The notes under the pieces are model-generated. The model ran no database searches. It was not told where the DNA came from and saw nothing but the letters and a program-made list of their open reading frames with translations. A stretch of 38,432 bases of DNA, from assembly GCA_018714855.1 (NCBI GenBank), contig DVMT01000028.1:1-38432 (forward strand), written 5' to 3'. The translations under genes and the position numbers were made by a program. Every line of letters begins with the position of its first letter. Within the stretch, counting starts at the first letter, position 1. The DNA comes from Candidatus Aphodocola excrementigallinarum. GTDB lineage: Bacteria; Bacillota_I; Bacilli_A; RF39; UBA660. Below, piece after piece: positions 8,146 to 26,788 of the stretch.

Positions 8146-9504
8146 TTAAGCTGGTACTAACAATTTTTGCCCTATTTGAAGGGTATTAGATGAAAGGTTA
8201 TTTAACTTTTTAATTTCATCAACGGTAGTGTTATAGTTGTTTGCAATAAGCCATAAGCTATCTCCTTTTTTAACCGTATACGTAGTATATTTGCTTGTTG
8301 TTGGTATGATTAATGTTTGCCCTATTTGAAGGGTGTTAGAAGATAAGTTATTGGCACTTTTTATTGCGTCTACCGTTGTGTCATAGGTGTTTGCAAGCTT
8401 CCATAAACTGTCTCCTTTTTTAACCGTGTAAGTAATTTGGTTAGCACCAGATGTTGTATTATTTCCAGGAAGTATTAACACTTGTCCGATGGATAATAAA
8501 TTAGATGATAAGTTATTTAAACGTTTTAACTCATTAACGGTAGTGTTATAATTGTTTGCAATAAGCCACAAACTATCTCCTTTTTTTACTACGTATGTGT
8601 TTTTGTTTTCGTTTGCATTTTGATCACTACTAGTTGGTAATTTTAGTACTTGCCCAATTGATAAAAGATTGGAAGACAAATTGTTAATTCTTTTTAGTTC
8701 ATCAACGGTAGTATTATATTTATTTGCAATAAGCCATAGGCTATCACCACTTTTAACCGTATAAGTATTTTGATTATCTTCATTATTATTTTCACTGTTA
8801 CTAGTTGGTAATTTTAAAAGTTGTCCTATTTGAAGGGTGTTAGATGATAAATTGTTTAACGATTTTAAATTACTTACAGTGGTGTTATACTTACTTGCAA
8901 TAGACCAAAGACTATCTCCAGACTTAACGATGTAATATCCTTCTAAGTTTTCTGGAAGATAAGTTATGTTAGCATACTCTGCGATAGCTTTTACCACTGC
9001 TTCTGCAAGAACGTTTTTGTTTTCCTTTAAAAAGTTAGCATCATCACTATTAGATATATTTCCATAATCGATTACGATTGTTTGATTGTTTTTAGTATTT
9101 CTAATTAAATAATCATCATCAAGAGCGGTATCTTCTTCGTTTCTTAACTGGTAATATTTAAGAACAGTTGCTCCTACGCTTTCTAAGTCTTCAGCTATTT
9201 CAGATGCTAACCTACTATTATTTCTAAGTGCGTACATTATCTCTATTCCAGCATCACCAGTATTTCTTAACCTATTTGAAATTACTATTATGTTATTTCC
9301 ATTTCCATATCTTTCTTTTATTATGTTTACTTTTTCTTCATCAGTTAAACTATTATTTTCACTTCTTACTAAAAAACTTTCTATTCCAAGATTATTTAAT
9401 CTATCATTTATGTATTTTGCTATATCAAAAGTATAGTCATTTTCCGTTATTCCGTTAGAAGAAAAATTATTATTTGATGCATCAACTGCAACTTTATATG
9501 CCAT
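8146..9504 (-). CDS. LysM-repeat protein with degenerate Amidase_3-like domain
   Basis: N-terminal domain is a paralog of 6003-7394 but lacks several catalytic residues; five LysM repeats. Confidence 0.85.
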   Translation of the reverse strand: MAYKVAVDASNNNFSSNGITENDYTFDIAKYINDRLNNLGIESFLVRSENNSLTDEEKVNIIKERYGNGNNIIVISNRLRNTGDAGIEIMYALRNNSRLASEIAEDLESVGATVLKYYQLRNEEDTALDDDYLIRNTKNNQTIVIDYGNISNSDDANFLKENKNVLAEAVVKAIAEYANITYLPENLEGYYIVKSGDSLWSIASKYNTTVSNLKSLNNLSSNTLQIGQLLKLPTSNSENNNEDNQNTYTVKSGDSLWLIANKYNTTVDELKRINNLSSNLLSIGQVLKLPTSSDQNANENKNTYVVKKGDSLWLIANNYNTTVNELKRLNNLSSNLLSIGQVLILPGNNTTSGANQITYTVKKGDSLWKLANTYDTTVDAIKSANNLSSNTLQIGQTLIIPTTSKYTTYTVKKGDSLWLIANNYNTTVDEIKKLNNLSSNTLQIGQKLLVPA

Positions 9505-9585: not shown

Positions 9586-10281
9586 ATGTTAGCAATTGTG
9601 GCATCAGATAGGTGTTATATAAATGAATTGTTGGAAAAGCTTACTTTTTCTAAGGAGTTAAGTCCTAATAAAACGGAACTTTATAAATGTAATTATAAGG
9701 ATCATGAGTTTTTATTGTTGGTAACCGGTTATGGGAAGGTAAACATAGGAAGTTCTTTAAGATACATATGTGAAAAGTATAAAGTAAAAGCGGTACTTAC
9801 CATCGGTACTTGTGGTAGCGTAAGTGATACAAATGATATTTTTACCGCCATAATACCACATTCTTCCTTAGAGTTTGACGTTGATTTTATGCCAAATGGA
9901 TACTTGCAAGGCGTTATTCCAAAACTAAGTAAGGGTATTTATAAAACGGATGAAGATTTAAATGATTGCCTAAAAAGAGCATCAAATACTTCTGGCGTTA
10001 GCTATTCAAATGATTTAATAGCAACTTCTGATATGTTTGTTTCAAATTATAGTTTAGCAAACAGTATAAGAAGAGAGTATAATGCATCAGCGGTTGATTG
10101 TGAGTGCGGCAGCGTAGGTGAATTTTGTTTTGTAAATAACATTTCTTATGCTTGTATTAAAGTGGTTTCTAATTTTTCAAATAATAACGGGATAAAGCAG
10201 TTTAATTTATATGATGATGAATCATCTAAAATATCGCAAAGGATTACTTATAAATTCTTAAAAGAGTTTTATGAAGCATAA
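9586..10281 (+). CDS. PNP/UDP phosphorylase-family nucleosidase (MTA/SAH nucleosidase-like)
   Basis: LLVTGYGKVNIGSSLRYI, VLTIGTCGSV, DCECGSVGEFC, IKVVSNFSN. Confidence 0.75.
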   Translation: MLAIVASDRCYINELLEKLTFSKELSPNKTELYKCNYKDHEFLLLVTGYGKVNIGSSLRYICEKYKVKAVLTIGTCGSVSDTNDIFTAIIPHSSLEFDVDFMPNGYLQGVIPKLSKGIYKTDEDLNDCLKRASNTSGVSYSNDLIATSDMFVSNYSLANSIRREYNASAVDCECGSVGEFCFVNNISYACIKVVSNFSNNNGIKQFNLYDDESSKISQRITYKFLKEFYEA

Positions 10282-10318
10282 ATTTTAAAAAAACAACTAG
10301 AATAATACTGGTGATAGC

Positions 10319-10786
10319 ATGAAAAAAATAAACTGGAAAAGATTAATAATCATTATTATAATTACTTTTATAGTTGGTTCGTTTTTTAGTTTCTTTACGA
10401 TGAATAACATGGATACTTTTAAGGAACTAAAAAAGCCGATAAACGTACCAGGAGTACTTTTTCCAGTAGTATGGAGCATACTTTACTTACTTATGAGTAT
10501 ATCTTGCTATATAATAACAACTAAGGATGATAAGAATAAGGATAACGCTATTATTTGGTACGGTATCCAGCTTGTTATTAACTCACTTTGGAGTTTGATA
10601 TTCTTTGGATTTAGTGCTTATTTATTTTCGTTTATCTGGATTATTCTTCTTTTGACAATAGTTATTATTATGATTGTAAAGTTTTATAAAATAGATAAAA
10701 TGGCATCTTATTTAAACATTCCTTATGTTTTGTGGATATTATTTGCAGGATTCCTAAATTTGGGTATTTACATTTTAAACAGGTAA
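10319..10786 (+). CDS. TspO/MBR-family membrane protein
   Basis: LKKPINVPGVLFPVVWSILYLLMSIS, INSLWSLIFFG, IPYVLWILFAGFLNLGIYILN. Confidence 0.88.
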   Translation: MKKINWKRLIIIIIITFIVGSFFSFFTMNNMDTFKELKKPINVPGVLFPVVWSILYLLMSISCYIITTKDDKNKDNAIIWYGIQLVINSLWSLIFFGFSAYLFSFIWIILLLTIVIIMIVKFYKIDKMASYLNIPYVLWILFAGFLNLGIYILNR

Positions 10787-10808
10787 AAATAAATTTTATC
10801 TGTTTTTT
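10775..10808 (+). terminator. Terminator downstream of the tspO-like gene
   Basis: AAACAGgTAAAAataaaTTTTATCTGTTTTTTT. Confidence 0.7.
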
Positions 10809-10883
10809 TGTATTTTGTCTTGATTTTATCATATTCATATTATAGAATGATAAAGCACGCTAAAAAAGGAGGGTATAAAAATA

Positions 10884-11441
10884 ATGAGGAATAAAAATAA
10901 TGTTCAAGATAACAAAGATGATTTAAATGAAAAACTATCAGTTGCAGAACTTAGAATTTATGAGGGTTTTTATGATGGAAAAGACAGGTTTTTACCACTT
11001 ACAAAGATGATTGTTGTAAGAGATGATAATGATTGCAGAAACATAATAAGTGGAAGAGAATATAACGTATATCAAATGTTAGATGGTAAGTTTTATCCAT
11101 TTACAAATAATACTAGTTATGAAATGAAATTAGGAGATGTTTTCTGTTCTATTGAAAAAGATTTATCTTTAAAAGAAAACGTGTTTAATTATATGACCGA
11201 AAGTGATGATTTTTATTATTACAGACTTCCATATTTACAAGAAAGATTTGATTTGTATTCTAAATGTCAATCATCTTATGTTTCACAAAGATTAAGATAT
11301 TATCAAAGAAAAATATCTAGTGATCTTTTAAAAAGAGAAAAGGTAGATTTATTATTAGATGAGCATGTGAAATTACTAAAAGAATATGATAATAATAACA
11401 AATCTAAAGTACTTAAAATGAACGCCAAGAAAAGAAGTTAG
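10884..11441 (+). CDS. Conserved hypothetical protein
   Basis: 185-aa ORF with good RBS (aaaggagg); no family recognised. Confidence 0.7.
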   Translation: MRNKNNVQDNKDDLNEKLSVAELRIYEGFYDGKDRFLPLTKMIVVRDDNDCRNIISGREYNVYQMLDGKFYPFTNNTSYEMKLGDVFCSIEKDLSLKENVFNYMTESDDFYYYRLPYLQERFDLYSKCQSSYVSQRLRYYQRKISSDLLKREKVDLLLDEHVKLLKEYDNNNKSKVLKMNAKKRS

Positions 11442-11544
11442 GTATGGTGTTCATTTTATTTTATTAAAAATAATTAATATTTTAAAAAAAATAGTGAAAA
11501 ATAAAGCTTTTTATTATATAATATAACATCAAGAAGGTGATATT

Positions 11545-12246
11545 ATGGCTTATATTGAATTTAAAAACGTAAATAAAGTATATCAAATGGGTGAAGTAAA
11601 AATAAAAGCACTTAATAAAACCTCTTTCGATATTGAAAAAGGAGAACTTGTTGTAATACTAGGTCCCTCAGGAGCGGGAAAGACAACTTGCTTAAACATA
11701 CTAGGTGGAATGGATACAGCAACTAGTGGAACGGTGTTAGTAGATGGAAAAGACATTACTAGCTACAGTGAAAAAGATTTAATAATGTATCGTAGAAATA
11801 ACATTGGCTTTGTTTTTCAATTTTACAATTTGGTACAAAATTTAACAGCTCTTGAAAATGTTGAATTAGCAGTACAATTATGTAAGGACCATTTGGATCC
11901 TAAGACAATTCTTAATAAGGTAGGATTAAAAAACAGAATTGATAATTTTCCTTCCCAATTATCAGGAGGAGAACAACAACGTGTTGCAATCGCTCGTGCA
12001 ATTGCTAAAAACCCTAAACTTCTTTTATGTGATGAACCAACTGGAGCACTTGATTATAAAACCGGTAAACAAATATTAAAATTACTTGAAGAAACATCAA
12101 GAAAAGAACATATGACCGTAATTATAATTACTCATAACGCTGCGATAGCACCTATGGCTGATAAGATTATAAAGTTTAAAAACGGTAGTGTAAGTGATGT
12201 TATAATAAATAAAAAACCAAAAAGCATAGATGAAATAGAGTGGTAA
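11545..12246 (+). CDS. ABC transporter ATP-binding protein (MacB/LolD-type)
   Basis: [35 protein letters not shown]. Confidence 0.95.
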
Positions 12247-18971: not shown

Positions 18972-19001
18972 AAGATAGTTTTCTTTATCTTTTATTTTTT
19001 T
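18966..19001 (+). terminator. Terminator
   Basis: AAATAAAAGATA-gttttc-TTTATCTTTTATTTTTT. Confidence 0.65.
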
Positions 19002-19056
19002 ATGCTACTTTCATTTTATTTTCATATAATATCTTAGTTAATAAAAGGAGGATAAA

Positions 19057-19983
19057 ATGAATATTATAGATAAGGAGTTTAATGAGCTAGCGGGTGTTAT
19101 AAAAAATAAATCTTTAGAGGAGGTATTTAACGATATAAAAGATGCTTTCTTTAAAATCCCACTAGAGACACAAAAGTCATTAGAAGATTATTACGCAAAC
19201 TTTGGTTACTGGGGAAAACTTAAAAGAAGTGATGAAGAATACGAAGAGTTATATAACCGTGCTAAATCACTAAAAGAGCATATAGATGATTATGTATTTA
19301 TATATGATAAACTATCTGATTATCGCTCTAAAAAGCTTTTATACGCCATTTTAAGCAACTGGTATAGGTTTGATTTCGTAACCATTGCAAGTTCGTTAGA
19401 AAAAAACTACGCACAATATTTAGATTTAGATATATTAAAACCTAGTAGTGATGAGGTAATAGTTGATTTAGGGGCATATACGGGAGATACTATGTTAAAT
19501 TATATCAATACCTTTGGAGATGATAGTTATAAGAAAATATATTGTTATGAAATAACTAAAGAAACTTTTGAAAACTTAAAAGGTAACTTAAGGAAATATG
19601 AAAACATAGAGTTTGTTAATAAAGCGACATCAGATCATGAAGGCGTGTTATACATAAATGAAAACGAAACTGGGGCATCTGCTAACACTATAGAAGAAAC
19701 TGGTGATAAAGAAGTTATAGCAACCACGATTGATAATGATATAAAAGATAAAGTAACGTTAATTAAAATGGATATAGAAGGATCTGAACAAAAAGCTTTA
19801 AAGGGATGTGAAAACCATATTAAAAACGAACATCCAAAACTATTAATATCCGTTTATCATAATCATGAAGATTTATATAAAATACCATTAATGATTAATG
19901 ATATGGATTCGTCTTATAAGTTTTATCTAAGATGTTATGGTAGTATAATCTTCCCAACGGAAATAGTTTTATTTGCAGTTTAA
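19057..19983 (+). CDS. FkbM-family methyltransferase
   Basis: VIVDLGAYTGDTMLNYI, KIYCYEITKETFENLKGNLRKY, VTLIKMDIEGSEQKALKG, HPKLLISVYH. Confidence 0.88.
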   Translation: MNIIDKEFNELAGVIKNKSLEEVFNDIKDAFFKIPLETQKSLEDYYANFGYWGKLKRSDEEYEELYNRAKSLKEHIDDYVFIYDKLSDYRSKKLLYAILSNWYRFDFVTIASSLEKNYAQYLDLDILKPSSDEVIVDLGAYTGDTMLNYINTFGDDSYKKIYCYEITKETFENLKGNLRKYENIEFVNKATSDHEGVLYINENETGASANTIEETGDKEVIATTIDNDIKDKVTLIKMDIEGSEQKALKGCENHIKNEHPKLLISVYHNHEDLYKIPLMINDMDSSYKFYLRCYGSIIFPTEIVLFAV

Positions 19984-20127
19984 ATCAGTATATTAGGAAC
20001 GTTTATGTATATATTTCACTCTAAATATTTATTGCACGAATAGCACAACAAGAAGTTGATATCATTTATATAATTATTTATAATAAATAAAATAAGAATA
20101 ATTTTAAAAAGAAATTTAAAAAAATTA

Positions 20128-20156
20128 TTGACAATATTTGTAAAATATTGTATTTT
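20128..20156 (+). promoter_or_regulatory. Promoter of the folE2-like operon: TTGACA-N17-TATTTT
   Basis: TTGACA 20128-20133, TATTTT 20151-20156, 17-nt spacer. Confidence 0.7.
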
Positions 20157-20162
20157 AAAAAC

Positions 20163-20251
20163 AATTAATCAATTTGGGTATTGTGTTTGCCCAAATGGTG
20201 GCAGTATTTTCATGGTGGCAAACACTTTTAAGTGTTTTTGCCACCTTTTTT
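20163..20251 (+). ncRNA. Structured leader / candidate riboswitch-like attenuator
   Basis: P1 TTTGGG(20173-20178)/CCCAAA(20190-20195); antiterminator GTGTTTGCC(20183-20191)/GGCAAACAC(20217-20225); terminator hairpin 20214-20245 + T6. Confidence 0.65.
20214..20251 (+). terminator. Intrinsic terminator upstream of the folE2-like gene (attenuator)
   Basis: GGTGGCAAACACT-ttta-AGTGTTTTTGCCACC followed by TTTTTT. Confidence 0.8.
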
Positions 20252-20276
20252 ATTGCCTTAATATTAGGAGGTTAAA

Positions 20277-21047
20277 ATGGAAGATGTTCATAACAATATA
20301 GAAAAAAGAAATGTGTCGATAGAAAGAGTAGGAATAAATAATTTTAGATTACCTTTTTGCTATAGGTCGTTATATGATTATAATACTATTGCATCAATAA
20401 TTTCTGGGGTATGTGTTGGCTGTAGTGAGAAAGGGGCACATTTAAGTAGAATTATTGAGGTATTAAATGAGTTGTTAGCTAACAAAATTCTTAAATTAGA
20501 AGATTTTTCTACGATAATAAAAGCTCTAGCTGATAGGATTGAAAAAAAAGATATAGAGTTAACCGTTAGTTTTCCAACATTAATAGAAACAAAATCTCCT
20601 ATTACTAATAAGATAAGCTATATTGATTCTGAGGTGGAGGTGAAAGTAATGTTAAAAAATAATACAATTTATAAAGATGTATCTTTAAAAATGAATGGTG
20701 CAATGTGTTGCCCTAGTTCTAAAAAAATTTCTAAATATGGGGCTCACAGTCAAAGATGTTTATTAAAATCTACAATAGTTGATGCAAAAGATGATTTATT
20801 GATAGAAGATGTAGCTAATATTTTGCAAAAATGCTTTAGTGCACCCGTATTTTCGGTTGTTAAAAGAGAAGATGAAAAATATATGACTGAAACTGCTTAT
20901 GAAAATCCTAAATTTTCTGAGGACTTAATTAGAGATGTATTACTTAATTTAAAAAGAAAATATAAGGATTCAGAAATAATTGCAGAAATGGAAAATTATG
21001 AATCTATACATTCGCATAATGTATATGCAAAGGGATATTTGAAATGA
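20277..21047 (+). CDS. folE2: GTP cyclohydrolase IB (FolE2-like)
   Basis: VERVGINNFRLPF, GAHLSRIIEVLNE, CCPSSKKISKYGAHSQR, VKREDEKYMTETAYENPKFSEDLIRDV, NYESIHSHNVYA match the FolE2 family. Confidence 0.88.
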   Translation: MEDVHNNIEKRNVSIERVGINNFRLPFCYRSLYDYNTIASIISGVCVGCSEKGAHLSRIIEVLNELLANKILKLEDFSTIIKALADRIEKKDIELTVSFPTLIETKSPITNKISYIDSEVEVKVMLKNNTIYKDVSLKMNGAMCCPSSKKISKYGAHSQRCLLKSTIVDAKDDLLIEDVANILQKCFSAPVFSVVKREDEKYMTETAYENPKFSEDLIRDVLLNLKRKYKDSEIIAEMENYESIHSHNVYAKGYLK

Positions 21048-21916
21048 TAAAGGTTTATGTAAAAGATTTAATTGATATGTTAAAAATCAAAGGCGATCAA
21101 TTGAATATTATAGTTTGTAAAGCGCTTATTGCTGCTATGATAAACAAAAAAATTGCATATAAAGATAGGCAAATGATAATAATTGATGAAAATGTATTTA
21201 AAACACTATGGAATATATATTTAAGTAGTCTTTGTTATTTTGATATTAATTATAATAGAAAAACAGATTTCAAACTATATTTTGAATATATCATTGATTC
21301 ATTAATGAATAATAAACAATTAACGTTTTTATCTCTTTTTTGCCCAGGGTATACTAAAGACGGGTATAAAGATAGGCTGGGTAATACAACAAAATGGAAA
21401 TTGGCAGAATTAAAAAATATCAACTCTTTTTTTCAAGAAAACGAGGTAGATAATTTAATTTATTGTTATTATTCAGATGTGTTTCTAGAAAATACAGATT
21501 ATGAAGTAAATTCAAAATGGATGATTCAAATGGATTATAACAGATATTTGTTTCACGAAGAGGCTAAAAAATATTTTGATGAAATATATGTAAAAAATGC
21601 TTCTGATTTAGAAATATTTTCGGAGGAAAAAAGTATTAGTGGGTACATTGATGATAATCTTGTCAAGAAAGTAAATCCTAGAACGTATAAATCTTTTAAA
21701 AAGTTTAATGAAAAGTTTTATAATAAATTAGGTTTTTCAAAGGAACAAATGTTATTTAGAAATGATAGGTTAATTACAATGTATAAATTGTTATCTGATT
21801 ATATTAATTCTCAGAGTAATACAATTTTTTTGCCAATGGAAAACATGTATGAGAGAGAAAATATATTTTCAGAAAATAATACATGTACAATGTATTTGAA
21901 ATTAAAAAGGAGATGA
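21044..21916 (+). CDS. Hypothetical protein in GTP-cyclohydrolase cluster
   Basis: 290-aa ORF overlapping folE2 stop (ATGA); motif FCPGYTKDGYKDRLGNTTKWKLAELK; no family recognised. Confidence 0.75.
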   Translation: MIKVYVKDLIDMLKIKGDQLNIIVCKALIAAMINKKIAYKDRQMIIIDENVFKTLWNIYLSSLCYFDINYNRKTDFKLYFEYIIDSLMNNKQLTFLSLFCPGYTKDGYKDRLGNTTKWKLAELKNINSFFQENEVDNLIYCYYSDVFLENTDYEVNSKWMIQMDYNRYLFHEEAKKYFDEIYVKNASDLEIFSEEKSISGYIDDNLVKKVNPRTYKSFKKFNEKFYNKLGFSKEQMLFRNDRLITMYKLLSDYINSQSNTIFLPMENMYERENIFSENNTCTMYLKLKRR

Positions 21917-21919
21917 AAC

Positions 21920-23446
21920 ATGAAAGATAAATATTCATTTTATTTGCAAAATAACAATAAACTATTTAATAGTGATATTCTTGTTGTTTGTTATGAAGCA
22001 GATGAGTCTGAGATAAGTGAATACAACTTAACATCAAAATCCATAATATTATTTATAAAAAGTGAAGAAATAAATTTTGCCACTTTGAATAAAGATGTTA
22101 ATTATAGAAATATTATTAAAAAAGCATTTGATAAAAAAGATGTTTTTTTAAGACTTCAATGTGAGTGTTTGTTGGGGATGTATGGAGACTCACATTGTGA
22201 TTGTGAGCAACAAAGATTAGATAGTATAAAACTCATTTCAAAACATAATGGTATATATATTCACATTCCACAAGAAGCTCAGGGCTGGGGATTGCCATAT
22301 AAAATTAAAGAACTTGAATTACAAGTATCTGGAAGAACCCAAGATGGGAAGTATATTGGCATTAAAAATAGAGATGATGCTCAAAAATTATTATTAGGTA
22401 ATGAGAAATTTCAGGATAATAGAAATTATAAAATTATATCTGATATTTTAAAGAATTTAGGTTTGAAAAAAAATAAATTTATATTATTAACTGATAGTCA
22501 AAGAAAACTAGATGATATAAAAACCACAGGATTAAATGTTATTGGTTATAAAGAATATAATAGTAATTCAATAAATGTCAATAATTTGTCTGAGTATTTA
22601 ATAAAAATATTAAATGGTACGCATGCTTTTTCGCAAGAAGTATTGGATACAATTCTATCGTTGATTATTGATAGACAATATAACGAACGAACGTTATCTA
22701 CATTAGTAAGTATTGTAAATAAGATAAAATATGATAAAAATTATTATCTTGATAATGTTTCAAAAAAGAAAATATTAAATGCTTATAATACAATAATATG
22801 TGGTGATGAGAAAGAGTATTATATTGGTGATGATAACACGATTAAGATACAAAATAATTTTTGTTGTAGAGTTAATACATCTATATTTAAAGTTATCAAA
22901 AATGTTTTAGGGAAAAATATTTTTGATAGAATTTCTTTAGAAAAACTATATTATTTTCAGAATAAATATAGTAATGAAATAGTTAAAATAAGAACAAGTA
23001 AAATTTTAGATATTAGAGATGATAATTCTGAGTTTTTCAAAGGACAACATCATGCAGAACAAAGAATAATTAACAAAGATAAAAATAAAATAATTCAAAA
23101 AGAAGTAACTGTTTCAAGTTTAAAATCATATTTTGAAAATCCTAATTATGACTATGTAAAGAGAGTTGAAATGATAACAATTATATCTGAATTTGATATG
23201 CCAGGTGTTAAGGTCTTTATAAAAAGAATACCAACAATTGATAATAGGGTTTTGGATGTATTTGGTAAGAAGAAAGATATAAAAGAATTTTTAGATAAAA
23301 TAATAAAGTCAAATCCCAAGGTCTTATTAAATAAAGTTACAGACACAAGATTTGAGGATGAGAATTTTACCGATTATAATTTGAGATTTGCAGATATTAA
23401 TGCTATAATCGAAGAAGAATTAAAGATATTTAATATATTAAAATAG
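21920..23446 (+). CDS. Divergent GTP cyclohydrolase II (RibA)-like protein with long C-terminal extension
   Basis: RLQCECLLGMYGDSHCDCEQQRLDSI, PQEAQGWGLPYKIKELELQ, DNRNYKIISDILKNLGL, FILLTDSQRKLDDI align with the RibA core; residues after ~200 unassigned. Confidence 0.8.
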   Translation: MKDKYSFYLQNNNKLFNSDILVVCYEADESEISEYNLTSKSIILFIKSEEINFATLNKDVNYRNIIKKAFDKKDVFLRLQCECLLGMYGDSHCDCEQQRLDSIKLISKHNGIYIHIPQEAQGWGLPYKIKELELQVSGRTQDGKYIGIKNRDDAQKLLLGNEKFQDNRNYKIISDILKNLGLKKNKFILLTDSQRKLDDIKTTGLNVIGYKEYNSNSINVNNLSEYLIKILNGTHAFSQEVLDTILSLIIDRQYNERTLSTLVSIVNKIKYDKNYYLDNVSKKKILNAYNTIICGDEKEYYIGDDNTIKIQNNFCCRVNTSIFKVIKNVLGKNIFDRISLEKLYYFQNKYSNEIVKIRTSKILDIRDDNSEFFKGQHHAEQRIINKDKNKIIQKEVTVSSLKSYFENPNYDYVKRVEMITIISEFDMPGVKVFIKRIPTIDNRVLDVFGKKKDIKEFLDKIIKSNPKVLLNKVTDTRFEDENFTDYNLRFADINAIIEEELKIFNILK

Positions 23447-23459
23447 AAAGAGGTGTATT

Positions 23460-24089
23460 ATGGAATACGAAGTAAGATTTTATTATCCAATTAAAGAATA
23501 TAATAATAAAATAAATCTATTAAATAAGATCTCAACTTTAAAATGTAATGGAAGAAATTATGAAAAAACATCTCAATTTAATCATCCTAGCCCTAAATAC
23601 AATTTCTATTCTAAAAAAATAGATGGGAGATTTAGAATTAGAATAACTAAGGGAAAAAATATTTCTAGGTGTATGCTAAGTTGGAAACGAAGATTACCAA
23701 TAACGCTTGAGTCTTCAATTAACAAGGAGGAAGAAATTGAGCTTACAATAAAACCTTCTGAATATGATAATTTAATGTTTATAGTCAAAAATATATTACA
23801 TATGGAGGAAGTAGAAAGCTATGAAAGGTTTAGAACTACTTTCACTAATTCAGAGGTTGAAATAGCATTGGATGAATATCCGTTTGGTTTAGCTTTGGAA
23901 ATAGAGGCCAAAACCTTTGATAATAAAGCTGAAGAAGTCGTTGATAAATACGTAGAACTTCTTAAATTGGATTATAAAGATTCATATAGACTTTCTTGGG
24001 ATGATAAATACGAAGAATTATGTAAAGAGCAAGGCAAAGAGAAGTTTAAGCATGTATTATTTGACTGTGATATGCCGGAGATAAAATAA
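23460..24089 (+). CDS. CYTH-domain protein (triphosphate tunnel / class IV adenylate cyclase superfamily)
   Basis: N-terminal MEYEVRFYYP (ExExR), RFRIRITKGKN, EIELTIKPSEYDNL, VEIALDEYPFGLALEIEAK. Confidence 0.85.
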   Translation: MEYEVRFYYPIKEYNNKINLLNKISTLKCNGRNYEKTSQFNHPSPKYNFYSKKIDGRFRIRITKGKNISRCMLSWKRRLPITLESSINKEEEIELTIKPSEYDNLMFIVKNILHMEEVESYERFRTTFTNSEVEIALDEYPFGLALEIEAKTFDNKAEEVVDKYVELLKLDYKDSYRLSWDDKYEELCKEQGKEKFKHVLFDCDMPEIK

Positions 24090-24091
24090 TC

Positions 24092-25027
24092 ATGAATCAA
24101 TTAAAAAATATAGAATTTGTTGCTAATAATAGTAAATATGTATGTATAAACCAGGAAAAAATAAAAAAGCTTGCATCTGAATTAGTTATAGATTGTCCTA
24201 AACATTTACAAAAGGGTTTATCAAATAAGCTAACGGAAAATGAAATGGTTGTTTTCATGCTCTTATGTGAATCAATTAATTTCTGTTTTTGGCCTGAAAA
24301 AAAGTGGAAGATAAAATACAAGAATAAAATTTATTATGGTTCTGTTGCTATGTTTTTATCAATGCAAAGAGCTATTGAGGAGAACAGTCATATGTTTGAT
24401 ATAGAAAACTTAAAAAAAATAACATATGATAAATTTTGTAGTATTTTTAAAACATTAGACAAACCTATTTCTCTTTTAAAAGAACGATATAAAAATTTTA
24501 GAGAAGTATCTTTAACATTACAAAAAAAGGGTAATAAGTTTTTTGATGAAATATATCGCATTAATTCTGATGTTGAATTATTAAATTATATTGTTAAAAC
24601 TTTTCCATGCTTTAATGATGTAAGCTGTTTTAAACTAAGGAAAATTAGATTTTATAAAAGAGCTACTTTGTTAGTAAGAGATTATTATACTCTTGTACCT
24701 AAAATTAGAGAGAATATAAAGAGTATATCTAATTTAACTGCGTGCGCTGATTATGTTGTTCCAAAGCTTTTAAGAGGGTTTGGAATTTTAGAATATAATA
24801 GTTCTCTTTCAAAAAAAGTGGATTCAAAAATACTACTAAGGCATAACAGTAGAATGGAAATAGAAATAAGAGCTAATATGATAATTGCTGTAGAAATGCT
24901 AAGGAAAGAACTCTTAAAAAATGATAAAGTCATTGATTCTGTCATTCTAGATAGTATTTTATGGCAATATGGAGAACACATTGGAAAATCATCTTCTCAT
25001 CATAGAACTATAACTATATTTTATTAG
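24092..25027 (+). CDS. Queuosine salvage protein / queuosine nucleosidase-like (DUF2419, Qng1-like)
   Basis: ESINFCFWPEKKWKIKYKNKIYYGSVAMFLSMQRAIEE, FYKRATLLVRD, LTACADYVVPKLLRGFGILEYNSSL, EIEIRANMIIAVEML, ILWQYGEH match DUF2419. Confidence 0.87.
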   Translation: MNQLKNIEFVANNSKYVCINQEKIKKLASELVIDCPKHLQKGLSNKLTENEMVVFMLLCESINFCFWPEKKWKIKYKNKIYYGSVAMFLSMQRAIEENSHMFDIENLKKITYDKFCSIFKTLDKPISLLKERYKNFREVSLTLQKKGNKFFDEIYRINSDVELLNYIVKTFPCFNDVSCFKLRKIRFYKRATLLVRDYYTLVPKIRENIKSISNLTACADYVVPKLLRGFGILEYNSSLSKKVDSKILLRHNSRMEIEIRANMIIAVEMLRKELLKNDKVIDSVILDSILWQYGEHIGKSSSHHRTITIFY

Positions 25028-25340
25028 TAATTATAAAATCTATGTTAATAACATCATCAAACGATATTTTAGTGTTATCTAAGTAAATGATTTTATTTAT
25101 TTTATCTATTTTTTTAACCTTGCCAATTGTTTCTATATAATTTACGTTATGATAGTGTTTTATTAATACACTATCATTTTTATTAATACTTAATATCGTT
25201 TTGTTAATATCGTTTAAGCTGTCTTCTGATAGCTCTTTTTTATTATCTTTTTGTTTTTCCTCTTTTTCAATTAACTCGTAAAATCCTTTTAAAGAATCGA
25301 ATGGTAAAAACTGTTTAGCTCTATTTAAATTACTCTGCAT
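25014..25340 (-). CDS. YolD-like protein
   Basis: RAKQFLPFDSLKGFYELIEKEEK plus OB-like tail; adjacent to Y-family polymerase. Confidence 0.75.
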   Translation of the reverse strand: MQSNLNRAKQFLPFDSLKGFYELIEKEEKQKDNKKELSEDSLNDINKTILSINKNDSVLIKHYHNVNYIETIGKVKKIDKINKIIYLDNTKISFDDVINIDFIITNKI

Positions 25341-26583
25341 TATGACCTCCTATTAGTTTGTTTCTCTTTTTCTGTGTTGCAAAATCAAGTAAGCTTATGC
25401 ATTTTAAGATGGAGTCATTTCCATACTTTTCTTTTATTTCATTTATAATATTTGAAAGTTTATTTTCTTTTTTATCTTCCTCTTCATTAGAAAACATGTT
25501 TAGCTGCTTAAATCTTCTTTTTCCTACGTTTGTGAAAAATACACTTATTCTTCTTATTTTGTACTTTGTGTTTATCACGTAATCATACTCACTTAACAGT
25601 AATTTCGTTATTTCGCTTGTGTTATTAGTTTGGTCATCTAACGTTTTAGAAACTTTAGTGCCTGGTGCTTCATCTTTAGAGTAACCTATGAAAAAACCTA
25701 CGTGATCAGTAAATAAGTTTTCTTTTGATAATCTTAAAGATAAGCTGCTAATCATTTCTGTAAGTACTACTTTAGCTTGTTTGTAGTCATAGTCTTTATC
25801 TAGTATCTGGCTGTTTGATATAGCATTTGATTTTGGTTTATATGCCTTAATTTCTTTTATGGTGCATGGTTCTATTCCTTTTGCGTGATCGATTAAGAGT
25901 TTTGCGTTTATACCAAATGTTTTATATAATACTTTTTCATTAGCGAAAGCTATATCATGCATGTTTTTTAAATGTAGTTTGTTAAGTTTATTTTCGGTTT
26001 TAACTCCTATTTGCCAAAAGTCACTTAAAGGTTCGTGATACCATAATTTCTTTTTATATTCATCTTCATTTAAGTATGCAATGTTATCTTTATTATGCTT
26101 TGCCATTATATCAAGCGCTACTTTAGCTAGATAAAGGTTGGTGCCAATTCCGCATGCTGCGGTAATACCAGTTTTTCTTTTTACATCTCCTATTATTTCT
26201 TTAGCAAGATTATAAGCACTTTTATTATATAGTTTTAAGTATGGTGTAACACATAAAAACGCCTCATCAATGGAGTACTGAAAAACGTCTATAGAGCTTA
26301 CGTATTTTAAATATATTTTATGGATTAAAACGGAATACTCCATATATCGTTTCATTCTTGGTTTAGCAATTATATATTTTATGTTTTTGGGTATTTCAAA
26401 TAATCTACATCTATTTTTAACACCTTGCATTTTTAGTTTAGGACTAACCGCAAGACATATTGCACCACGACCACGTGTTTTATCTGCAACTACTAGATTT
26501 GTCTTAAATGGATCAAGACCTCTTAATACGCATTCTACTGACGCATAAAAAGTTTTTAGATCAATGCAAAAGTAAATACTCAT
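25330..26583 (-). CDS. Y-family DNA polymerase (UvrX/DinB-like)
   Basis: IDLKTFYASVECVLRGLDPF, IDVFQYSIDEAFL, AACGIGTNLYLAKVALDIMAKH, FWQIGVKTENKLNKLHLKNMHDIA. Confidence 0.92.
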   Translation of the reverse strand: MSIYFCIDLKTFYASVECVLRGLDPFKTNLVVADKTRGRGAICLAVSPKLKMQGVKNRCRLFEIPKNIKYIIAKPRMKRYMEYSVLIHKIYLKYVSSIDVFQYSIDEAFLCVTPYLKLYNKSAYNLAKEIIGDVKRKTGITAACGIGTNLYLAKVALDIMAKHNKDNIAYLNEDEYKKKLWYHEPLSDFWQIGVKTENKLNKLHLKNMHDIAFANEKVLYKTFGINAKLLIDHAKGIEPCTIKEIKAYKPKSNAISNSQILDKDYDYKQAKVVLTEMISSLSLRLSKENLFTDHVGFFIGYSKDEAPGTKVSKTLDDQTNNTSEITKLLLSEYDYVINTKYKIRRISVFFTNVGKRRFKQLNMFSNEEEDKKENKLSNIINEIKEKYGNDSILKCISLLDFATQKKRNKLIGGHNAE

Positions 26584-26609
26584 TTTTCATCACCAACAAT
26601 ATAATAACA

Positions 26610-26623
26610 CAAACATTTGTTTG
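26610..26623. promoter_or_regulatory. Putative LexA/DinR-type box
   Basis: CAAACATTTGTTTG, 6-bp dyad arms around 2 nt, 26 bp upstream of the polymerase start; resembles CGAACATATGTTCG. Confidence 0.45.
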
Positions 26624-26788
26624 ATAGAACACTTTTTTTAAAATGGAAAAAAATGGCAATATTTTTAACTATAGTGCATTGCTATGTATAAACAATTATA
26701 TCTTAATAATGTTATAAGGTAGGTGAATAGTTGTTTTGAGATATTAATTATGTTATAATTTAACAAATAATGGTGTAAGGGTGGTAAC

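Follow-up and report, generated by a model that had tools for sequence, protein, structure and literature searches.

The 38,432-nucleotide window analysed here is contig DVMT01000028.1, contig 6 of the Candidatus Aphodocola excrementigallinarum assembly GCA_018714855.1 (1.18 Mb, 65 contigs, 94% complete). It carries a compact five-gene operon in which a modified homologue of guanosine triphosphate (GTP) cyclohydrolase II (GCH II), hereafter RibAx, is followed by a stand-alone CYTH protein, and this pair is the conserved core of a gene set that recurs in distant bacteria. RibAx denotes the RibA-like protein of the set and ORF2p a remote relative of the product of the second open reading frame (ORF2); L-numbers denote loci and G-numbers genomes. 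The locus comprises the following features:

20128-20262, + strand: leader, with a promoter-like TTGACA-17-TATTTT at 20128-20156, then hairpins, a T run and AGGAGG
20277-21047, + strand: FolE2-like gene, GTP cyclohydrolase IB family (PF02649, E=1e-58), second motif Cys replaced by Ser
21044-21916, + strand: ORF2, unrecognised family with a predicted tyrosyl-tRNA synthetase (TyrRS) / PIsnA-PvcA / cyclodipeptide synthase (CDPS) fold
21920-23446, + strand: RibAx, a GCH-II-like core (about residues 60-240) and a C-terminal domain (298-464) with a predicted CYTH / triphosphate-tunnel fold
23460-24089, + strand: stand-alone CYTH / triphosphate tunnel protein, motif residues intact
24092-25027, + strand: Qng1/DUF2419, putative N-glycosidase (PF10343, E=9e-61), K189 and D220 conserved
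19985-25038: the whole present/absent unit, delimited by blastn of the window against the same-genus locus L089

As the preliminary description had it, the five genes lie on one strand with tight joints; all starts and ends proved exact, with one 4-nt overlap followed by gaps of 3, 13 and 2 nt. Its placement of all five behind one promoter fared less well: a promoter-like site is present at 20128, but the last leader hairpin (about 20211-20252) and its T run intervene before the first ATG, and the claim of a single promoter is unsupported. A Shine-Dalgarno-like AGGAGG lies immediately 5' of that ATG. The leader (20158-20262) is strongly folded (-40.5 kcal/mol, z = -3.9), and the hairpin with its T run is a possible attenuator. 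A riboswitch was also considered, and an Rfam search of the leader returned no match.

The proteins encoded by the operon

RibAx matched PF00925 (GTP_cyclohydro2) with E=7e-14, over residues 71-210 of its 508 only, and could be aligned with the GCH II of E. coli and H. pylori and with that of a RibBA across about 140 residues. It shares with GCH II (RibA; E. coli 2bz0, H. pylori 4rl4) the core fold, the zinc-binding Cys residues and the Asp126, Arg128, Lys154 and Glu92 positions. C83, C93 and C95 (C54, C65 and C67 in E. coli) are present in 15 of 15 sequences and also in L112, and D166, R168 (Asp126 and Arg128), Lys196 (Lys154) and the Glu at the guanine-binding E92 position are each found in all 15. 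RibAx differs from GCH II at the Tyr105 position, occupied by Leu132 in the 15 sequences and likewise by Leu in a sixteenth copy, L112, and at Arg94, where the 15 carry Gln and L112 carries Lys. It differs further in its additional C-terminal domain and in its context, with a CYTH partner and no riboflavin neighbours. Scores of 37-65 bits place it below all GCH II equivalog cut-offs (206-569). The AlphaFold2 model (predicted local distance difference test score, pLDDT, 82) retrieved the GCH II structures 4rl4 and 2bz0 in Foldseek, and its C-terminal part retrieved the CYTH/triphosphate tunnel metalloenzyme (TTM) structures 1yem, 2een and 7ns8. When the C-terminal domain was compared with the stand-alone CYTH family by hhalign, E was 0.05 and the probability 1%, and no ExExK motif was seen. 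Since sequence profiles miss this relation, the predicted CYTH fold of the domain is read from the fold match alone.

The stand-alone CYTH protein of the window had no direct Pfam match, and PF01928 recognised three of 12 orthologues, one of them above the curated cut-off (L078, 25.8 bits against 23.2). The motifs ExExR, RxRxR, WKxR, ExExE, ERxR and ExE are nevertheless invariant in the 12 sequences, with E2, E4, R6, R57, R59, R61, K76, R78, E90, E92, E94, R123, R125, E147 and E149 conserved throughout, and fold searches gave weak matches to TTM3 (3v85, 5a5y). Compared with known CYTH enzymes and TTMs (thiamine triphosphatase, TTM3, class IV adenylate cyclase), the set has in common the motif residues of the stand-alone protein and the predicted fold of the RibAx C-terminal domain, whereas its CYTH protein is divergent, falls below most Pfam detection and always occurs near RibAx.

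The second gene had been left as unknown in the preliminary description. It indeed has no Pfam family, but its predicted fold is recognisable and it is a conserved member of the set. The AlphaFold2 model (pLDDT 88) gave 13 top Foldseek matches, all from the TyrRS/isonitrile-synthase/CDPS superfamily: among them 6bqz (TyrRS, 7e-5), 9dhm and 9dh4 (PIsnA, 4.8e-4), 6ez3 (CDPS, 1e-3) and 3e59 (PvcA, TM-score 0.53), with 8-16% identity to the nearest folds. ORF2p proteins are 23-27% identical to ORF2 (phmmer E about 1e-7 to 1e-9). A sequence link to isonitrile synthases or CDPS was sought and no relation was detected: none of 13 ORF2/ORF2p members matched the DIT1_PvcA or CDPS Pfam profiles at E up to 10. 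ORF2 thus resembles isonitrile synthases (PIsnA, PvcA) and CDPS in its predicted fold, which is class-I aminoacyl-tRNA-synthetase-like, but not detectably in sequence, and no catalytic residues can be assigned to it.

The FolE2-like protein is related to 2r5r, 8g6c and 3d2o and resembles FolE2 (GTP cyclohydrolase IB) along its whole length, including the His of GAHxQR and the ESIHxHxVY/F motif. It differs in the second Cys of CPCSK, which we take to be catalytic in FolE2 and which is replaced in all three copies found in the set, by Ser in the window (CPSSK) and by Asn in the other two (CPNSK). The window copy scored 179.6 bits, below the NCBIfam FolE2 equivalog cut-off of 215.

Qng1 matched PF10343 (Q_salvage) with 206 bits against a cut-off of 25, and 7uk3 with 4e-42. 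It resembles the queuosine 5'-phosphate hydrolases (7uk3, 7ugk) over its whole length, and its K189 and D220 occupy the positions of Sphaerobacter K199 and D231, the Lys and Asp presumably involved in catalysis; it differs from them in sharing an operon with GTP-opening enzymes. In the Qng1 tree, a single subclade with strong support contains the set copies and six solo copies. The set label requires at least two changes on this tree, so that repeated gain or loss of Qng1 is probable. Of 196 genomes of the window's family, 32 encode Qng1/DUF2419, in most cases as a solo gene whose surroundings vary, although TGT and QueA are present in the set-bearing genomes that were examined.

Profile and structure searches thus bore out three of the proposed families directly in Pfam (FolE2-like, RibA-like and Qng1), the CYTH assignment by motifs and relatives only, and placed ORF2 through its fold.

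Conservation and distribution of the gene set

A RibAx profile search of GTDB genomes found 17 loci; with the window and L112, a further Patescibacterium, this makes 19 distinct loci (duplicate contigs counted once: L005=L073, L006=L070, L053=L068). Loci were considered evaluable when the contig continued far enough beside RibAx. The CYTH gene directly adjoins RibAx in 15 of 16 such loci, and in L077 it lies two genes off in divergent orientation. The accompanying genes fall into several arrangements. Type A has the order FolE2-ORF2-RibAx-CYTH, followed by Qng1 where this could be judged (the window and L006, and in part L069 and L075, which are truncated by the ends of their contigs), and type B the order RibAx-CYTH-Qng1-ORF2p (L005, L053, L062, L063, L065 and L066; L064 is cut by the contig end). 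Type C consists of RibAx-CYTH-ORF2p without Qng1 (L071, L072 and L074). In L077 (WWE3), L112 (Patescibacteria) and L078 (the isolate Claveliimonas monacensis, Lachnospiraceae), a creatininase-family gene joins RibAx and CYTH. Every one of the 13 Bacilli-type loci that could be judged encodes ORF2 or ORF2p, and Qng1 is absent from six set loci (L071, L072, L074, L077, L078 and L112). The conserved core is therefore RibAx with CYTH and not the FolE2 and RibA pair emphasized in the preliminary description; FolE2 and Qng1 are optional. That description had held that unconserved neighbours would speak against its proposal, and the survey found the gene set conserved.

In the same-genus genome G780, the same flanking genes are present at 90-95% identity and positions 19985-25038 are missing as one clean block, so that the unit must have been gained or lost whole. 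In blastn against L089, window positions 18989-19984 correspond to 7210-6214 (90%) and 25039-26661 to 6186-4564 (95%), with nothing between them. In place of the unit, G780 has about 27 nt, including an inverted repeat that resembles a terminator, between an FkbM gene and a yolD gene. The FkbM-type methyltransferase gene just upstream in the window (19057-19983) belongs to the conserved flank and lies outside the inserted unit. Given that CYTH lies beside RibAx, or two genes away, in 16 of 16 evaluable loci, and that the unit represents a single insertion or deletion relative to a same-genus genome, the association is far beyond chance.

The set is sparsely distributed. RibAx was detected in three of 194 genomes of the order, in none of the five further members of the genus included there and, among 299 genomes of the family of the Lachnospiraceae isolate, in that isolate only. 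A phage or plasmid origin was considered: viral contigs gave no match with RibAx, CYTH or Qng1 patterns, plasmids and phages yielded only distant GCH II matches of the canonical, riboflavin type, and a plasmid search with ORF2p and with the CYTH protein of L078 gave no match. The set is a rare, mobile operon of very small bacteria that probably live in the gut.

Several copies have further features. Genes of small-molecule type lie beside some of them: a SIS-domain gene precedes the set in L071 and L072, and L006 encodes a MetK-like protein (8240-9022; 260 amino acids), far shorter than S-adenosylmethionine synthetase and matching only its N-terminal domain in Pfam. Two genes beside the set, at 13980-14828 in L006 and 7089-7781 in L074, have no Pfam match, and by eye their products tentatively resemble nucleoside-diphosphate-kinase-type domains. 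Directly after RibAx of the WWE3 locus L077, positions 9623-11796 encode a 391-amino-acid protein of no known family and an LPG_synthase_C (GNAT/FemAB-like) protein. L053 (4726-7855; the same as L068) is a decaying copy, with RibAx frameshifted near its start and Qng1 cut to 193 amino acids, and L038 (1003-2572) holds a CYTH-Qng1 pair with no adjoining RibAx, its CYTH 64% identical to that of the window.

Host metabolism and the function of the operon

Folates, flavins, deazaguanines and several antibiotics are all made by routes that begin with the opening of GTP. The pathways of the hosts were examined by single-family searches (FolP, PF00925, TGT and QueA) in 12 set-bearing genomes. FolP was not found in 11 of them and was present only in the Lachnospiraceae isolate; in hosts lacking FolP, the set does not start the normal folate route. 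Ten genomes had one PF00925 match each, which in the window genome is RibAx itself, and none of the 12 had a second GCH-II-like gene by this profile. That the sole GCH-II-like gene found in each genome with a match lies in the set supports the view that the set does not feed the ordinary riboflavin route. TGT was found in 12 of 12 genomes and QueA in 11, and Qng1 is therefore not the only link to queuosine in these hosts; the preliminary description was right that the window lacks tgt, and it also lacks queA, but both genes are present elsewhere in the genome. A canonical folate, riboflavin or queuosine operon is disfavoured by this gene content and by the active-site changes, and the idea that the operon is a remnant holding the host's only FolE and RibA, merely collected together, is highly improbable: a second GCH-II-like gene was not found in these genomes, but neither was FolP in 11 of 12, the operon is absent from the same-genus genome, and RibAx and the FolE2-like protein both have changed active-site positions.

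Our preferred reading, to which we give a probability of roughly 40%, is a specialised pathway, spread by horizontal transfer, that begins by opening GTP or another guanine nucleotide. The analysis establishes the gene set, its conservation, the block-wise presence or absence, the predicted folds and the active-site residues, whereas the reactions, their order and the product are all inferred. It retains the specialised GTP-derived pathway of the preliminary description, which remains the best reading of a conserved set, but with a non-canonical RibA-like protein, an altered FolE2 motif and a different core. Small Bacilli-type genomes share the core pair with Patescibacteria and with an isolate of the Lachnospiraceae, and given that a GTP-opening enzyme and a triphosphate-binding partner travel together even in distant bacteria, the set probably makes a GTP-derived small molecule not yet described.

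RibAx may catalyse a zinc-dependent opening of the imidazole ring of GTP, stopping at or favouring the formamidopyrimidine ribonucleotide. It would keep the formyl group because it lacks the Tyr linked to formate loss in GCH II; in a GCH II of Streptomyces coelicolor, a Tyr-to-Met change at the Tyr105 position reportedly goes with a formylated product. The CYTH protein could act on the triphosphate group of the substrate, the product or a leaving group. In Patescibacteria and Lachnospiraceae, the creatininase-family partner may then act as a deformylase. ArfB and the creatininase-family BrbF of Sinorhizobium take the formyl group off the corresponding intermediate of riboflavin synthesis (PMC9478397), which makes the creatininase partner of the distant loci meaningful: it belongs to the same superfamily, and deformylation would be the logical step after a formylated product, although this partner is absent from the window operon. 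In the small Bacilli, ORF2 might alter the intermediate, perhaps by attaching a group derived from an amino acid; in some loci, Qng1 might release the base from its sugar phosphate and the modified FolE2 might re-work the ring. A broader version, in which the core of distant phyla makes a new class of GTP-derived metabolite or signal from a formylated, ring-opened guanine nucleotide, and host-specific modules (the creatininase, or the aminoacyl-tRNA-synthetase/isonitrile-like enzyme with Qng1 and altered FolE2) give different end products, is more doubtful.

Several points weigh against a specialised pathway of this kind. The creatininases of the set fall below every curated cut-off, and their best NCBIfam score is for MftE, not ArfB. 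The link between Tyr105 and formate release is drawn from the Streptomyces enzyme, and the enzyme class of ORF2 is suggested by its predicted fold only. Since Arg128 is kept, RibAx may release pyrophosphate itself, and an obvious triphosphate on which CYTH could act would then be lacking. The set also differs from most biosynthetic clusters in having no constant gene for a transporter, a methyltransferase or resistance. G029 and G773 carry the set and had no PF00925 match, so that a single negative with this profile is no proof of absence.

The strongest alternative, though unlikely, is anti-phage defence or nucleotide immunity, in which the set, once triggered, would deplete GTP or deoxy-GTP or produce a nucleotide that serves as a toxin or signal, and CYTH would be a partner that processes nucleotides. 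The rarity, patchiness and block-wise presence or absence of the unit fit this, as do the neighbours of several copies, which include AbiE genes (downstream in L066), the PADLOC candidate PDC-S05, YafQ/ParE-type toxins, and integrase, ArdC and transposase genes. However, PADLOC matched none of the five set proteins, the set contains no sensor, effector nuclease or membrane-disrupting protein, and many flanks consist of ordinary chromosomal genes; nor did the searched viral contigs hold a copy, the phage and plasmid matches being of the distant riboflavin type already mentioned.

Somewhat less likely again is salvage of queuine or 7-aminomethyl-7-deazaguanine (preQ1) with passengers, where Qng1 would free queuine from queuosine 5'-phosphate for TGT and its neighbours would serve another purpose or help uptake. 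The retention of both catalytic positions in Qng1, the universal presence of TGT in the genomes examined and the occurrence of Qng1 mostly without the set in the family agree with it. Yet with QueA present the usual route inserts preQ1, and queuine could stand in for it only if TGT were dual-specific. Moreover, the six set loci listed above lack Qng1, and in the operon Qng1 comes or goes together with four other genes in one block. RibAx could also be a variant of the uridine triphosphate (UTP) cyclohydrolase URC1, opening a pyrimidine or another nucleotide in a degradation or nitrogen-salvage route. UTP cyclohydrolase structures (7eev, 7ej3) are among its Foldseek matches, but sequence profiles return GTP cyclohydrolase II and not the UTP enzyme, the Glu at the guanine-binding position is invariant, and the set contains no recognisable gene for a uracil phosphoribosyltransferase or a DUF1688 protein, all of which makes this improbable.

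Regarding the specialised GTP-opening pathway, the open-access literature searched, which leaves out most subscription papers and all preprints, held no description of a GCH-II/CYTH gene cluster or of this gene set, and nothing relevant on triphosphate tunnel proteins together with GTP cyclohydrolases. The enzyme families are known; no account of their combination, the RibA-CYTH core, the fused domain with a predicted CYTH fold or the ORF2 family was found in that literature. Because Claveliimonas monacensis DSM 108991, a named isolate, carries one copy of the core, the proposal is directly testable. A rare, mobile and compact set that combines an altered ring-opening enzyme with an obligatory triphosphate-tunnel partner and a new aminoacyl-tRNA-synthetase-like family, as judged from its predicted fold, points to a further branch of GTP-opening chemistry, and, if true, this would offer a testable role for a CYTH protein and for bacterial Qng1 outside queuosine salvage.

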